From Chitinophaga pinensis (GTDB lineage Bacteria > Bacteroidota > Bacteroidia > 2-12-FULL-35-15), in NCBI GenBank assembly GCA_945865315.1, contig CAMBDK010000020.1, forward strand, positions 1 to 33,370: a stretch of DNA of 33,370 nucleotides, read 5' to 3'. Positions 23,071 through 30,165 of this stretch are shown piece by piece. Position 1 is the first letter of the stretch; every line of letters begins with the position of its first letter. The notes under the pieces were generated by a model, which was not told the DNA's origin, searched no databases, and was given only the letters and a program-made list of their open reading frames with translations. The position numbers and the translations under genes were made by a program.

Positions 23071-23670
23071 TTACCTGCTTGGCTTGTTTGATCGGCTTGC
23101 TAGTATTTGTTCAACCTTCTCGAGTTTGATATTTTTATATTTTAATAAAATTAAAAAATGATACAACAAATCAGCAGCTTCGTTTTTAAATAATTCTTCG
23201 TTGTCATCTTTAGCCTCAATAACCAATTCAATAGCTTCTTCGCCTACCTTTTGAATAACTTTGTTGATACCTTGTTTAAACAATTGGTTGGTATAGGATT
23301 TTTCATCATCACTATCAATGCGTTGGGATATTGTTTGCTCCAAGCTATATAAATAACCTTTGCTGGTTTCTTCATTAAAGCAGGAGGTTGATCCTGTATG
23401 ACAGGTTGGTCCTATTGGTTCAGCTTTAATTAATAGGGCATCCATATCACAATCGAGTTGAATCTCTTTTACAAGCAAAAAATTTCCGGAGGTTTCACCT
23501 TTTGTCCATAAGCGATTTTTTGATCGGCTAAAAAATGTCACTTTCCCTTCTTTTTCTGTTTTATCAAAAGCATCTTGATTCATATAACCTAACATCAGTA
23601 CTTGTTGCGTTAAGTGATTTTGTATGATAACTGGAACAAGTCCGTCGGCTGTATTAAAGTTTATTTTCAT
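23071..23670 (-). CDS. hisI: Bifunctional phosphoribosyl-AMP cyclohydrolase / phosphoribosyl-ATP pyrophosphatase
   Basis: [41 protein letters not shown], then HisE region [30 protein letters not shown]. Confidence 0.97.
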
Positions 23671-24419
23671 CGGATTAATATATTTTCTGTTTTTAAATAG
23701 GTTTTTAAAATTTGAATAGAGATCTCGCCAAAGTGAAATATGCTTGCTGCCAATGCTCCACTAGCTTTTGTTTGCTCAAATACTTCTTTAAAATGCAACT
23801 TTGTTCCAGCCCCTCCGGATGCTATGATAGGAATTTGGAGTTGTTGAGAAATTTTATTGGTAATATCCAATGCAAAACCATTTTTGGTTCCATCATTGTT
23901 CATCGAGGTAAGTAGAATTTCGCCAGCACCTAATTTTTCACCTTCTAATGCCCAATCTATGGTTTTTAATCCAACAGGTATTTTACCTCCATTGCTGTAT
24001 ACATGCCATTCGTTGTTTTCGAATTTTGTATCAATGGCAAGCACTACTGCTTGGCTTCCAAATTGCTTTGCTATCTCTGTAATAAGTTGTGGTCGTTTAA
24101 TGGCCGCCGAATTAATACTCACTTTATCCGCCCCGGCTTTTATAATTGCCGATGCATCTTCCATCGAATTGATCCCTCCTCCAACTGTAAATGGTATATT
24201 TATTTCACGGGAAATTTTCTCTACGAGATCCACTAATGTTTTTCTTTTTTCATTAGTTGCCGTAATGTCTAAAAACACCAGTTCGTCGGCCCCCTCTTCA
24301 ACATATCTTTTGGCTAATTCAATGGGGTCGCCTGCATCACGGATATCTAAAAAGTTGATACCTTTTACTGTTCGTCCATTTTGGATATCCAAACAAGGTA
24401 TAATTCTCTTCTTTAACAT
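23667..24419 (-). CDS. hisF: Imidazole glycerol phosphate synthase subunit HisF
   Basis: [55 protein letters not shown]. Confidence 0.98.
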
Positions 24420-25126
24420 AGTGTACTTAATTCTTTTAATGAAATTTTTTTCTCGTAAATAGCTTTGCCTACAATGGCGCCTTCACAGCCAATAGCTTTT
24501 AATTTTTCTAGGTCTGCAATATTAGATACACCTCCACTTGCTATGAGTTTAATATTTAACTTACTCAATATCTCGGTGTATAATTCGTTAGCTGATCCCT
24601 GTAACATACCATCTTTGTTGATATCAGTACTGATAACGTAATCTACCCCTTTGGCTTGATAATCTTTAATAAAATCAACAACATCTAATTCCGTATTTTC
24701 TAGCCAACCCTGTGTGGCTATCATGCGATTATTGCAATCGGCCCCTAAGATAATTTTGTTTGGTCCATAGGTTTGTATCCATTCTATAAATAATTGTGGA
24801 TTGGTTACGGCTATGCTACCCCCCGTTATTTGTGAGGCTCCATTACCGAATGCAATTTTTAGATCTTCGGTAGATTTTAATCCTCCCCCGAAATCTACAA
24901 TTAATTTGGTTTTTGTTGTAATGTCATTTAATACCTTATAGTTGATGATTTGTTTGGCACGAGCACCATCTAAATCTACCAAGTGCAAATATAGCATGCC
25001 ATTGGCCTCAAACTCCTTGGCAACTTCTAGTGGATTGATGTTGTATATCTTCTCGGTAGCATAATCGCCTTTGGTAAGGCGTACACATTTGCCGTTCATA
25101 ATATCTATGGCTGGTATAATTCTCAT
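24413..25126 (-). CDS. hisA: ProFAR isomerase HisA
   Basis: [63 protein letters not shown]. Confidence 0.98.
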
Positions 25127-25701
25127 AATGATAAAAAATTATTCAATATTATTTCTCCAATCTGGGCCGACTTTTCCGTGTGAAATTGTGTGGCGTAAAA
25201 ATTATCTTTTTGAATAGCTGCGCTAAACGGTAATATATAATTGCAGGTAGCTACCGTATCTTTAACAAGCTCGGCATAATAACTATGAACGAAATATACA
25301 TCATTCGTTTGGCTTATTCCTTTAAACATGGCCCCCGAGGTTTCCAACAAATTATTCCATCCCATATGTGGTACAATATCTATAGGAGGGAATTTTTTAA
25401 CTACGGTGTCAAAAATTCCAAGACATTTTGTATTACCTTCTTCCGAGCTTTTGCACATCAGTTGTAATCCCAAACAAATACCTAATACGGGTTGTTTTAA
25501 CGAAACAATAAGTTTGTCCAACTGATGTTGCTTCAAATAAGCCATGGCTGTACTAGCCTCACCAACTCCAGGGAAGATTACTTTGTTGGCCCTTTTAATT
25601 TCCGAAGGATCATCGGTGATGATGCAGTCAAAACCTAAACGTTTCACTGCATTCTCCACCGATTTGGTATTACCTGCATTGTATTTAATAATGGCTATCA
25701 T
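25123..25701 (-). CDS. hisH: Imidazole glycerol phosphate synthase glutaminase subunit HisH
   Basis: [62 protein letters not shown]. Confidence 0.98.
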
Positions 25702-26789
25702 AAACTTCCTTTTGTACTTGGTATCGAATAATTATTTGTTTTTGTTACGGCCATTTTTATTGTTTTTGCAAAAGCTTTAAAAATGGATTCTATTTTATGG
25801 TGCTCATTATCACCTTCAGCTTTTATATTTAAATTACATTTTGCGGCGTCGCTAAATGATTTAAAAAAGTGCATAAACATTTCTGTTGGCATATCACCAA
25901 TTTTTTCACGATTAAACTTTGCCTCCCAAACCAGCCAAGGCCTGCCTCCAAAGTCAATGGCTACCTGCGTTAGGCAATCGTCCATGGGTAATAAAAACCC
26001 ATAGCGCTCAATAGCCTTTTTACTTCCTAACACTTTTAAGAAGGCGTCGCCTAGGGTAATGGCTACATCCTCTATGGTATGGTGTTCATCAATTTGTAAA
26101 TCGCCTTTAACTTGTATGCTGAGATCCACATTACCATGTTTTGCAATTTGTTCTAGCATATGATCGAAAAAGCCAAGGCCGGTAGAAATATTTGATATAC
26201 CTGAACCATCTAGATTTACTATTACCGCTATATTGGTTTCGGAGGTAGCACGTATTACTTTAATTGTTCGTGGTTGAGTTGCAAGTAAATTATAAATATC
26301 TGCCCAATAGGGTGTGGATAAAACTGCCTCATCATTTATTTCTTTGCTTAAATAAATGGCTTTGCAGCCCAGATTTTTGGCAAGTTGCACATCCGTTAAT
26401 CGATCACCAATTACAAATGAATTGGCCAAATCGTAATTGCTCTTTATGTATTTACTAAGCATGGCTATGCCTGGTTTACGAGTGGGTAAATTATCTTTTG
26501 GGAACGAACGATCTATTAGAATATCAGAAAACTCAATTCCTTCGTTTTTAAAAGCTTGCAATACCTTGTTTTGTGCCGGCCAGAATGTCTCCTCCGGAAA
26601 GGAAACTGTCCCCAGTCCATCTTGATTGGTAACCATCACCAGTTCATAATCAAGTTCTTTGGCTATTCGTGATAAATTTTGGAAAACCCCAGGGTAAAAT
26701 TCTAACTTCTCTAAACTATCGAGTTGTAAATCAATTGGTGGCTCTATTACCAAGGTTCCATCTCTATCAATAAATAATACTTTTTTCAT
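25698..26789 (-). CDS. hisB: Bifunctional histidinol-phosphatase / imidazoleglycerol-phosphate dehydratase
   Basis: HAD domain [18 protein letters not shown] and IGPD domain ([46 protein letters not shown]). True start is at 26789 (4-nt ATGA overlap with hisC), not 26858. Confidence 0.97.
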
Positions 26790-27808
26790 ATGGTGTTTTT
26801 TAAAGCGTTTATCAATTGTTGATTTTCTGCTGGGCTGCCCACAGTTATGCGAATACAATTGTTAACAATGTTATTTCGGTTACGGGTTATTACTTGTTGC
26901 GATACCAATTGGTTGTAAATGGAATTTGCATTGGTGGTCTCTGCCAATAAAAAATTTGCATCCGAAGGATATATCTTTTTAATCACTGGCAATTCCATTA
27001 AGGCTTGCTCTAACCATTTCTTTTGGTCAAGAATAATCTTCTTGTTCTTTTCGAAATCAACCTTATTATTTAATGCATCTATGGCAGCCTCCTGGTTTAG
27101 CTTACTCACATTATAGGGAGGCTTTACTTTATTAAATATAGAAATAATTGGGTTGTTAGCATAGGCAATACCTACTCTGGCAGCTGCTAATCCCCATGCT
27201 TTGCTAAAGGTTTGTGATACTATAAGATTGGGGTATTGTTTGAGTTTTGAAAGATAAGATTCCTGTTTGCTGAAATCTATGTATGCCTCATCTACTAAAA
27301 CAATACCATTGAAATTTTGCATGATTTTTTCTATGTTATCGATGCAATTTCCACTCGGGTTATTAGGCGAACAAATAAAAATTAGCTTTAGGTTCGGTAT
27401 TTTGAGTGTCTTTTCAAACTCCTCTTGGTTGATTTGAAAAGAATCGTTCAAGGGAAGTTTAATCAATTCAACTTCATTGATTGCGGCCGATACATCATAC
27501 ATGCCATAGGTTGGTGAAAATGTTAATGCCTTATCCTTTCCTGGAGTACAAAATATTCTAAATGCCAAATCGATTATCTCATCGCTACCATTACCAATGA
27601 AAATATTTTCTAATGGTATGGATTTATAAGCGGATAATATTTGCTTCAACTCCATTTGGTAAGGATCTGGATACCGATTCAGCGTACCAAATGGATTTTC
27701 GTTGGCATCTAAAAAGGTGCCGTTCTTTCCACTAAACTCATTCCTTGCGCTTGAATATGGCATTAGATGGAGAATATTTTTACGGACAATATTTTCTAAG
27801 TTAAACAT
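26786..27808 (-). CDS. hisC: Histidinol-phosphate aminotransferase
   Basis: [74 protein letters not shown]. Confidence 0.98.
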
Positions 27809-27809
27809 G

Positions 27810-29084
27810 TTATTTGTTTTTTAATCTAATTGTAACTGCATTTTTGTGGGCAAACAATTGTTCTGCTTCCGCCATCAGTTCAATGGATGGTCCAATATTT
27901 TCAATTCCATTTTTTGTGAGTTCTTGAAATGTAATTTTCTTTACAAAACTATCTAACGAAACCCCACTGTAAGCCTTGGCAAATCCATTGGTTGGCAAGG
28001 TATGGTTGGTACCGCTTGCATAATCTCCAGCACTTTCACAACTATAATTGCCTACAAAAACAGAACCAGCATTTGTAATTAATGGTATCAGTTTGTTAGC
28101 TTTATCGTTTGCCAATATTAAGTGCTCAGGTGCATAGGCATTGCTAAATAACATGCAATCTTTAAGACTTTTAAAAACGATGGCCTTGCTGTTTTTTAAG
28201 GCGGCTGTAGCAATAGTTTTACGGGGTAAAACTTTCAATTGTTTTTTTAATTCTATCAATACTTTATTTACAACCTTATCATCATCTGCACATAAAATTA
28301 CTTGGCTGTCGGCTCCGTGTTCGGCTTGTGATAATAAATCAGCAGCAACAAAAGATGGATTACATGTTTCATCGGCAATAACCAATACTTCGCTTGGTCC
28401 AGCCGGCATATCTATTGCAATTCCTATACTTTGTGCCATTTGTTTAGCAGCAGTAACATATTGATTGCCTGGTCCGAAAATTTTATCTACTTGCTCAATT
28501 GATTTTGTTCCATAACTCATGGCTGCAATGGCTTGAATACCGCCTATAGAATTCACCGAGGTAATTCCAACCAAACTTGCAGCATATAATATGGTAGGAT
28601 CTATCTCTCCCTTTTTATTAGGAGGTGTACATAAAATAATTTCTTTGCATCCGGCTATCTTCGCTGGAATTCCCAACATCAACACCGTTGAAAATAGGGG
28701 AGCAGTTCCACCAGGAATATAGATGCCTACTTTTTCGATTGGTCTACTTTCTCTCCAGCAAGTTACACCAGGGGTAGTTTCAATTCTTTTACTTTCTTCG
28801 TTTTGGGCGGCATGAAATTTCTCAATATTTTGTTTGGCAAGTTTTATTGCCTTTTTTAATGCAGGCGACAATTGTTTATTCGCATTTGCAATGGTTTTAG
28901 AATTTACTTGTAAAGATTTTAATTCAACCCCATCGAATTGGGCGCTGAATTTCTTGGCAGCTTTATCTCCATCTTTTTTTACAGCCTTAAATACCTCGTT
29001 AACTAATTTATTAAGGTTCGATTTTTTTACGCTTGGCCTTTCCGTTAGCCTCAACCAATCTTTTGGATTTAAATATGTTTTCAT
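27810..29084 (-). CDS. hisD: Histidinol dehydrogenase
   Basis: VGIYIPGGTAPLFSTVLMLGIPAKIAG, DKIFGPGNQYVTAAKQ, IDMPAGPSEVLVIAD, DLLSQAEHGADSQVIL, SAGDYASGTNHTLPTNG. Confidence 0.98.
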   Translation of the reverse strand: MKTYLNPKDWLRLTERPSVKKSNLNKLVNEVFKAVKKDGDKAAKKFSAQFDGVELKSLQVNSKTIANANKQLSPALKKAIKLAKQNIEKFHAAQNEESKRIETTPGVTCWRESRPIEKVGIYIPGGTAPLFSTVLMLGIPAKIAGCKEIILCTPPNKKGEIDPTILYAASLVGITSVNSIGGIQAIAAMSYGTKSIEQVDKIFGPGNQYVTAAKQMAQSIGIAIDMPAGPSEVLVIADETCNPSFVAADLLSQAEHGADSQVILCADDDKVVNKVLIELKKQLKVLPRKTIATAALKNSKAIVFKSLKDCMLFSNAYAPEHLILANDKANKLIPLITNAGSVFVGNYSCESAGDYASGTNHTLPTNGFAKAYSGVSLDSFVKKITFQELTKNGIENIGPSIELMAEAEQLFAHKNAVTIRLKNK

Positions 29085-29096
29085 AGGTTCATCTAT

Positions 29097-29954
29097 TTAT
29101 ATCACCATTTTTTCTATAGGAACTACCAATATACCTTCTGCCCCTAGAATTTTTAATTGATCGATCACTTCCCAAAATTCATCTTCCTTTACAACAGAGT
29201 GAATACTTACCCAACCAGGTTTAGATAAAGGCAATATGGTTGGGGATTTCATACCCGGAAGTATTGCAGAAATACTGTTAACGGCTGATTCGGGTGCATT
29301 TAACAAAATGTATTTATTTTCATCTGCAGCTCTTACAGCATCAATTCTAAATATGAGTTTATCAAGGATCTGTTGTTTTTCTTTATTTAGTTTCCTATTA
29401 GCTATTAAAACTGCTGTACTCGATGTTACCACTTCTACTTCCTTTAATCCATTCATTAAAAGGGTGCTACCAGTGCTTACAATATCGAATATGGCATTGG
29501 CCAATCCAATACCGGGTGCAATTTCCACACTTCCACCAATTACTTCAATTTCAACTGAAATATTTTTTTCAGTAAAGAACTTCGATAGGATTTTGGGATA
29601 GCTCGTGGCCACTTTTTTATTGTTGAAATATTCTAACCCGAAGTATTCTTCATCTTTTGGAATGGCTAGTGAAAGTTTACATGTTGCAAAGCCCAGCTTT
29701 TTTATGGTAGTAACGTCTTTGTCTTTCTCCCAAACCTCGTTTTCGCCAAGGATACCAATGTCAGCTACACCCTGCTCTACATACTGAGGGATGTCATCAT
29801 CACGCAAGAATAATACTTCAATTGGGAAGTTTTTTGATTCGGCCTTCAGTTTGCGATCTCCATTGGATAGTTGAATGCCACAGGATTTTAGAAGATCTAA
29901 AGATTTTTCGCTTAACCTTCCACTTTTTTGAATTGCAATTTTTAGTTTACTCAT
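29097..29954 (-). CDS. hisG: ATP phosphoribosyltransferase (long form)
   Basis: LKIAIQKSGRLSEKSLDLLKSCGI, LRDDDIPQYVEQGVADIGILGE, DIVSTGSTLLMNGL, and a C-terminal regulatory domain. Confidence 0.97.
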   Translation of the reverse strand: MSKLKIAIQKSGRLSEKSLDLLKSCGIQLSNGDRKLKAESKNFPIEVLFLRDDDIPQYVEQGVADIGILGENEVWEKDKDVTTIKKLGFATCKLSLAIPKDEEYFGLEYFNNKKVATSYPKILSKFFTEKNISVEIEVIGGSVEIAPGIGLANAIFDIVSTGSTLLMNGLKEVEVVTSSTAVLIANRKLNKEKQQILDKLIFRIDAVRAADENKYILLNAPESAVNSISAILPGMKSPTILPLSKPGWVSIHSVVKEDEFWEVIDQLKILGAEGILVVPIEKMVI

Positions 29955-29990
29955 TTTTACTTTTTTGTGCCTGAGAAAACGAATGGGTTA

Positions 29991-30025
29991 GAAACAAAAA
30001 ACCCCATCTGTTTGCTCAGACGGGG
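29991..30025 (-). terminator. Intrinsic terminator between the his leader peptide and hisG (attenuator)
   Basis: Minus strand CCCCGTCTG-AGCAAA-CAGATGGGG-TTTTTTGTTTC: 9-bp stem with one G.U wobble followed by a T-run. The opposite strand would have an A.C mismatch, so it favours minus-strand RNA. Confidence 0.9.
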
Positions 30026-30060
30026 TTTGAAATATGTTTTAGTTACAACACACCAATATA

Positions 30061-30117
30061 TCACCTCGACTGATCGAATAAATGATGGTAATGATGTTGA
30101 AACACAATTAGGTTCAT
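30061..30117 (-). CDS. his operon leader peptide MNLIVFQHHYHHLFDQSR
   Basis: ATG AAC CTA ATT GTG TTT CAA CAT CAT TAC CAT CAT TTA TTC GAT CAG TCG AGG TGA: four His in five codons, followed by a terminator and hisG. Not listed in the ORF track because of its size. Confidence 0.88.
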   Translation of the reverse strand: MNLIVFQHHYHHLFDQSR

Positions 30118-30135
30118 TTTTCTTTTAATTTTTTA

Positions 30136-30165
30136 CAAAGTTAAAAATAATTTTTGAGTACACAA
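30136..30165 (-). promoter_or_regulatory. Bacteroidota-type sigma-A promoter for the his operon
   Basis: Minus strand TTG (30165-30163), 19-nt spacer, TAACTTTG (30143-30136), matching the -33 TTG / N19 / -7 TAnnTTTG consensus. Located just upstream of the leader peptide. Confidence 0.75.

Follow-up and report, generated by a model that had tools for sequence, protein, structure and literature searches.

The region preceding hisG in a Chitinophaga pinensis-assigned assembly very probably contains a histidine-responsive, ribosome-mediated transcription attenuator of the his operon. Sequence and comparative evidence allowed us to recognize its promoter, leader, terminator, and antiterminator pairing, as well as an additional pairing formed by a post-terminator segment. 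The DNA analyzed (the window) comprises all 33,370 nt of a stretch of contig CAMBDK010000020.1 (assembly GCA_945865315.1; source described as an uncultured Bacteroidota bacterium). Switches of this type are well established; the present one is widespread in the class, is absent from Rfam, and carries an extra conserved arm in one large subgroup. The attenuator itself is expected biology, and it is the class-wide scope and the unexplained covarying arm that stand out. The features of the locus are as follows.

30136..30165, minus strand: Bacteroidota-type promoter, with TTG (30165-30163), 19 nt, and TAACTTTG (30143-30136), from the sequence and relatives
30061..30117, minus strand: leader ORF MNLIVFQHHYHHLFDQSR, 18 codons plus TGA (ATG at 30117 to TGA at 30061), from sequence and conservation
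30082..30096, minus strand: regulatory codons CAT CAT TAC CAT CAT (His-His-Tyr-His-His), from the sequence
30064..30074, minus strand: region 2, antiterminator strand ATCAGTCGAGG, inside the terminal part of the leader ORF; pairing with region 3 indicated by minimum free energy (MFE), pair probability, and covariation
30031..30054 (approximate bounds), minus strand: helper hairpin (TTGGTGTG...CATATTTC) separating regions 2 and 3 in the predicted antiterminator fold
30011..30025, minus strand: region 3, the terminator 5' arm CCCCGTCTG plus the loop AGCAAA, common to three mutually exclusive pairings
29996..30025, minus strand: intrinsic terminator, with a 9-bp stem CCCCGTCTG/CAGATGGGG, loop AGCAAA, and a T-run of 6, from folding and covariation
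29969..29981, minus strand: region 5, post-terminator segment CGTTTTCTCAGGC, complementary to 30021-30009 (terminator 5' arm and loop) and ending 14 nt before the hisG ATG
29097..29954, minus strand: hisG, ATP phosphoribosyltransferase, ATG at 29954 (Pfam HisG, 1.2e-51)
23071..29084, minus strand: the remaining his operon, hisD, hisC, hisB (with a HAD phosphatase part), hisH, hisA, hisF, and hisIE (Pfam)

The genes 3' of the attenuator, as assigned by Pfam, are all his genes in the order hisG-D-C-B-H-A-F-IE on the same strand, and the promoter, leader, terminator, and hisG were all found in the minus-strand sequence where the preliminary description had placed them. Of 160 relatives, 126 have a TAnnTTTG element no more than 45 nt 5' of the leader ATG, versus 6 expected from shuffles, and 104 of these 126 also carry TTG at the -33 element. 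The gap between TTTG and the leader ATG is 7 to 12 or 16 to 21 nt in most relatives and 18 nt in the window; judged by this gap, the short 5' UTR suggested earlier (a leader start about 10 to 15 nt from the transcription start) is the rule among relatives. Elsewhere in the window, a long plus-strand ORF at 213-1646 has a translation that, in our own reading, resembles DnaA, and the his operon may thus sit near a replication origin.

The leader was defined as a short ORF of 6 to 45 amino acids with at least four His in six codons, as is expected of a peptide enriched in codons for the product amino acid of the operon, and was searched for within 300 nt in hisG upstream regions collected from the same class, which numbered 198 after reduction to distinct sequences. 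Such a leader was present in 163 of the 198 regions, versus 0.35 on average (maximum, 2) in dinucleotide-shuffled upstream regions and 1 on the opposite strand of the real ones; a looser cut of at least three His in six codons found a leader at 188 loci. Within the window alone, the leader ORF is only mildly unusual, with one leader of this kind compared to 0 to 1 in shuffled windows. We take the observation as real because the combination of parts, and the conservation of that combination, exceed chance. No part of the element is better conserved than the His-rich ORF, which recurs across terminator classes that have no similarity elsewhere.

An intrinsic terminator separates the leader from the first gene of the operon. 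In the window, the hairpin CCCCGTCTG-AGCAAA-CAGATGGGG occupies 30025-30002 and is followed by TTTTTT at 30001-29996; its stem has nine pairs, one of them G-U, and can be extended into the T-run by A-U pairs, giving a fold of -19.1 kcal/mol with this extension included. A hairpin of -9 kcal/mol or lower with a T-run was found between leader and hisG at 156 of the 188 loci bearing a leader by the looser cut. The preliminary description had regarded a lack of conserved His codons or terminators upstream of related hisG genes as evidence against attenuation; leaders at 163/198 loci and terminators at 156/188 show the opposite.

The sequence class of the window consists of 59 loci with CCGTYTGA-type terminators. 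In this first class, the leader ORF contains at its end CTCAGGCG or CTCAAGCG, which can base-pair with the 5' arm of the terminator (CGTCTGAG or CGTTTGAG). The antiterminator (2:3) helix contains one strongly variable pair, which is G-C in 33 loci, A-U in 14, G-U in 3, and A-C in none. Covariation of the 2:3 and 3:5 pairings was evaluated in a structure-blind MAFFT alignment of 51 loci, in which 94% of the 2:3 cells are paired, a value matched by 0 of 300 shuffles and compared with 24 to 45% in slid registers; the terminator stem cells are paired in 95%, also with covariation. On the HisG tree, the variable 2:3 pair has changed at least four times, with the reservation that the sequences share ancestry and provide few supported independent pairs, leaving the sign test with low power. 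An antiterminator, missing from the preliminary description of a histidine attenuator, has thus been found, and it covaries, which strengthens that reading. For a pause or classical 1:2 hairpin between the His codons and the segment after the stop codon, the signal was weak, with P ≤ 0.05 at 14 of 59 loci.

The position of region 2 matches its proposed function. Its start lies a median of 7 nt past the final clustered His codon, and its end precedes that of the stop codon by a median of 6 nt. Region 2 would therefore be covered by a ribosome positioned at the stop codon but should be left exposed by one that has stalled at the first His codons. In folding calculations, which were thermodynamic rather than cotranscriptional and used an assumed ribosome footprint, RNA complete up to the terminator 5' arm with the ribosome at the first His codon gave a mean 2:3 pair probability of 0.96, with values above 0.5 in 55/55 loci. 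The corresponding values for the window were a probability of 0.97 and an MFE of -15.7 kcal/mol, with the helper hairpin bringing the strands together; with the ribosome placed at the stop codon, the predicted fold is the terminator. By comparison and prediction, then, the leader has an antiterminator that excludes the terminator and whose leader strand a ribosome would cover at the stop codon but leave free at the His codons. The antiterminator of the window itself is weaker than those of its relatives: its 2:3 helix has two internal mismatches, U-U and A-C, and an ungapped 8-nt test matched 6 of 8 positions, which is not significant (P = 0.15).

A second class of terminators, GGCTTACC, has the same design in other letters (GGTAAGC/GCTTACC) and serves as a check on the mechanism, since its sequence is unrelated to that of the first class. 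At least six of seven 2:3 pairs are formed in 63 of 66 loci, and the variable pair is A-U in 46, G-C in 8, and G-U in 6. In many loci of this class (e.g., L043, L053, L055, L192, and L208), the leader stop codon and the predicted antiterminator strand (GGTAAGC or GGTAAGT) overlap, which would place a terminating ribosome right on that strand.

From this arrangement, we infer ribosome stalling and a response to histidine that would operate as follows. When histidine is plentiful, the ribosome would reach the leader stop codon and cover region 2; region 3 would then pair with region 4, forming the terminator, and transcription would end after ~130 nt. When charged tRNA-His is scarce, the ribosome would stall on the His codons and leave region 2 free to pair with region 3, the terminator 5' arm, allowing RNA polymerase to continue into hisG-D-C-B-H-A-F-IE. 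In the class of the window, region 5 could take over region 3 (5' arm and loop) after read-through.

Two other accounts of the locus must be weighed. The his operon could be controlled in some other way, by a T-box, a riboswitch, or a protein-bound leader, with the His-rich ORF being incidental. We found nothing in favor of this and consider it very improbable, as neither T-box nor riboswitch models gave a match even at an E value of ≤10 (for the T-box model, in the window), and the ORF is the part most conserved across dissimilar terminator classes. Alternatively, the hairpin could be a leftover terminator of the upstream gene accompanied by a chance ORF: the same-strand neighbor, an unrelated gene with a SpoIIE-like phosphatase domain, does end only 79 nt before the leader. 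However, a promoter and the leader intervene between that gene and the terminator, and the leader is conserved at 163 of 198 loci whose upstream neighbors differ. This refutes the explanation, which we regard as barely conceivable.

In the window and its relatives, no Rfam 15 family was found at threshold. The enterobacterial His_leader model (RF00514) scored 30.2 bits in the window against a gathering cutoff of 49, and 33.1 to 36.5 bits, the latter being the maximum, in relatives (L109, L122, and L124). The element probably works like a his attenuator, yet it is not a member of RF00514. In a plasmid collection, the sole match was to a hisG coding sequence, in Parabacteroides.

The classical model has no counterpart for region 5. 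In the window, 11 of 13 possible 3:5 pairs are formed, with a duplex energy of -14.6 kcal/mol compared to -5.7 in shuffles (P = 0.003), and per-locus shuffle tests gave P ≤ 0.05 in 34 of 36 testable loci of the same class. The segment ends a median of 16 nt, and most often 14 to 16 nt, before the hisG ATG. In the 51-locus alignment, 89% of the 3:5 cells are paired, versus 19 to 39% in slid registers, and 47 cells are changed on both sides, where shuffles average 14.5 and reach at most 25. The loop portion of 3:5, which has no role in the terminator stem, alone accounts for 31 such cells versus 9.3, and on the HisG tree, two loop pairs have changed state at least seven and at least nine times. 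When 3:5 partners are exchanged between loci, the duplex becomes weaker in 86.5% of the swaps, the own partner having the lower energy. Region 5 is missing in a few first-class members (L154, L163, L166, and L169), and in the second class, a post-terminator arm was detected at P ≤ 0.05 in 1 of 36 loci, about the level of chance.

Region 5 is also complementary to the hisG start (ATGAGTAAA) in many loci, with P ≤ 0.05 in 33 of 51, and partly so in the window. We considered this as the primary constraint and rejected it, because 3:5 pairing follows changes in the terminator at loci where the start mismatches (e.g., L004, L137, L158, L164, and L165); since 3:5 is kept where the hisG start differs and pairing with the start is lost, 3:5 is the constrained pairing. 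Region 5 cannot alter termination of its own transcript, because it is transcribed after the terminator; it can act only in read-through RNA or in trans. A covarying arm in this position implies some role following read-through, for which the classical model makes no provision.

What this function may be, in cis or in trans, we can only infer. Our preferred guess, offered with considerable doubt, is that region 5 serves in cis as a memory of read-through that couples transcription attenuation to hisG translation. After read-through caused by starvation, region 5 would displace region 2 from region 3, using the terminator loop as a toehold, and the hisG start would stay open; after leaky read-through, the terminator hairpin would stay folded, and free region 5 would pair with the hisG start, shutting off translation. 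The covariation of 3:5, loop included, and the preference for the own partner in swaps are consistent with such a memory. In constrained folding of 50 loci, the hisG start is predicted to be more accessible in 48 when 3:5 is formed than when 3:4 is formed (0.72 versus 0.55), a gain that arises partly by construction, as engaging region 5 frees its other partner; shuffling region 5 raises accessibility in the 3:4 state, with the native sequence lower at 39 of 50 loci. The loss of start pairing at loci that keep 3:5, and the four first-class members lacking region 5, weigh against it.

Ranked next, and unlikely in our estimation, is an action of the terminated leader RNA in trans: with histidine plentiful, its terminator loop would pair just 5' of hisG on leaky full-length mRNA and repress it. 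The terminator loop is itself complementary to region 5 and covaries with it, and there is a precedent in trans-acting attenuator leader RNAs such as rnTrpL of Sinorhizobium meliloti, a trp attenuator leader RNA that acts in trans; covariation, however, fits cis and trans pairing alike. Leaving the route aside, we tentatively envisage, at somewhat less than even chances, a five-region his leader in which the terminator 5' arm and loop are common to the antiterminator, the terminator, and the post-terminator arm, such that a single histidine-sensing decision, acting in cis or in trans, would determine both read-through and the translation of hisG.

Most of what is known about amino acid attenuation comes from Proteobacteria, cases in Actinobacteria and Firmicutes having been added later, and the enterobacterial his leader is described by a scheme of arms A to F. 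The element reported here resembles the latter (RF00514, weak subthreshold similarity) in having a short ORF of His codons and mutually exclusive antiterminator and terminator structures 5' of a his operon. It differs in its Bacteroidota promoter, its very short 5' UTR, its interrupted His run (HHYHH), the direct pairing of an antiterminator strand in the ORF end with the terminator 5' arm, and the extra post-terminator arm. In its simple leader-ORF/2:3/3:4 logic, it is closer to trp-type attenuators including S. meliloti rnTrpL, which also sets a precedent for a second role of a terminated leader RNA; there, however, the amino acid is tryptophan rather than histidine, and here the second pairing targets the operon's own first gene. 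Vitreschak et al. are said to have mentioned predicted attenuators in Bacteroidetes/Chlorobi in an abstract of 2004, which would be further prior art.

Bacteroidota mostly initiate translation without Shine-Dalgarno sequences. Leader peptide-like small ORFs have been reported in long 5' UTRs of Bacteroides thetaiotaomicron (PMC7366714). Closest to our case, the accessible portion of a study on Flavobacterium psychrophilum describes clues to leader-peptide attenuation 5' of amino acid operons and a conserved structured 5' element before hisG, in this species and other Flavobacteriaceae, with no Rfam match (PMC9723704). This is the same gene in the same phylum, and the Flavobacterium loci in our set (L147, L151, and L152) contain the leader, terminator, antiterminator, and region 5; the accessible portion of that paper gives no pairing scheme, antiterminator covariation, or post-terminator arm. 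A search of the literature on his attenuators in Bacteroidota or Flavobacterium returned only this paper and general works, and no description of antiterminator covariation or a post-terminator arm was found in the accessible literature, the supplement of PMC9723704 aside. The his attenuators of Firmicutes (Bacillus cereus group, Eubacteriales, and Erysipelotrichales) likewise have three to five His codons, a terminator, and an antiterminator 5' of his operons but differ in phylum and sequence, and the parts of that report available to us mention no post-terminator arm (PMC9413887).

Our results suggest that attenuation is the usual logic of his control in histidine-making Bacteroidia, operating with short 5' UTRs and a promoter that is not of the sigma70 type. 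Transcription-translation coupling in Bacteroidota thereby becomes directly testable with one reporter, and a covariance model would annotate many genomes that are now blank in Rfam.

Two groups of loci depart from this design. In Algoriphagus-type loci (L040, L042, L044, L046, L183-L185, L195, L206, and L207), the leader ends in ..HHFHHSS or similar, ~115 nt 5' of hisG; a perfect hairpin (e.g., TTCCTCCTGAGGAGGAA) holds the stop codon in its loop and is followed by a conserved segment similar to GGTGAYGCTGATGACAGGGATTCGGC. We detected no intrinsic terminator in these loci, and the five that were scanned gave no Rfam match; this looks like a different his leader, perhaps translational or Rho-dependent. 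In family f39 (L127, L128, L129, L131, L132, and L134), which shows no clear intrinsic terminator before hisG, the last codons of the His-rich leader fold into a tight hairpin together with the sequence that immediately follows them, for example, ATCGCC-GATA-GGCGAT around the stop codon. Across the class, hisG was detectable in only 131 of 296 genomes surveyed, and its presence varies even within the genus of the window, a patchiness that points to repeated loss of histidine synthesis.
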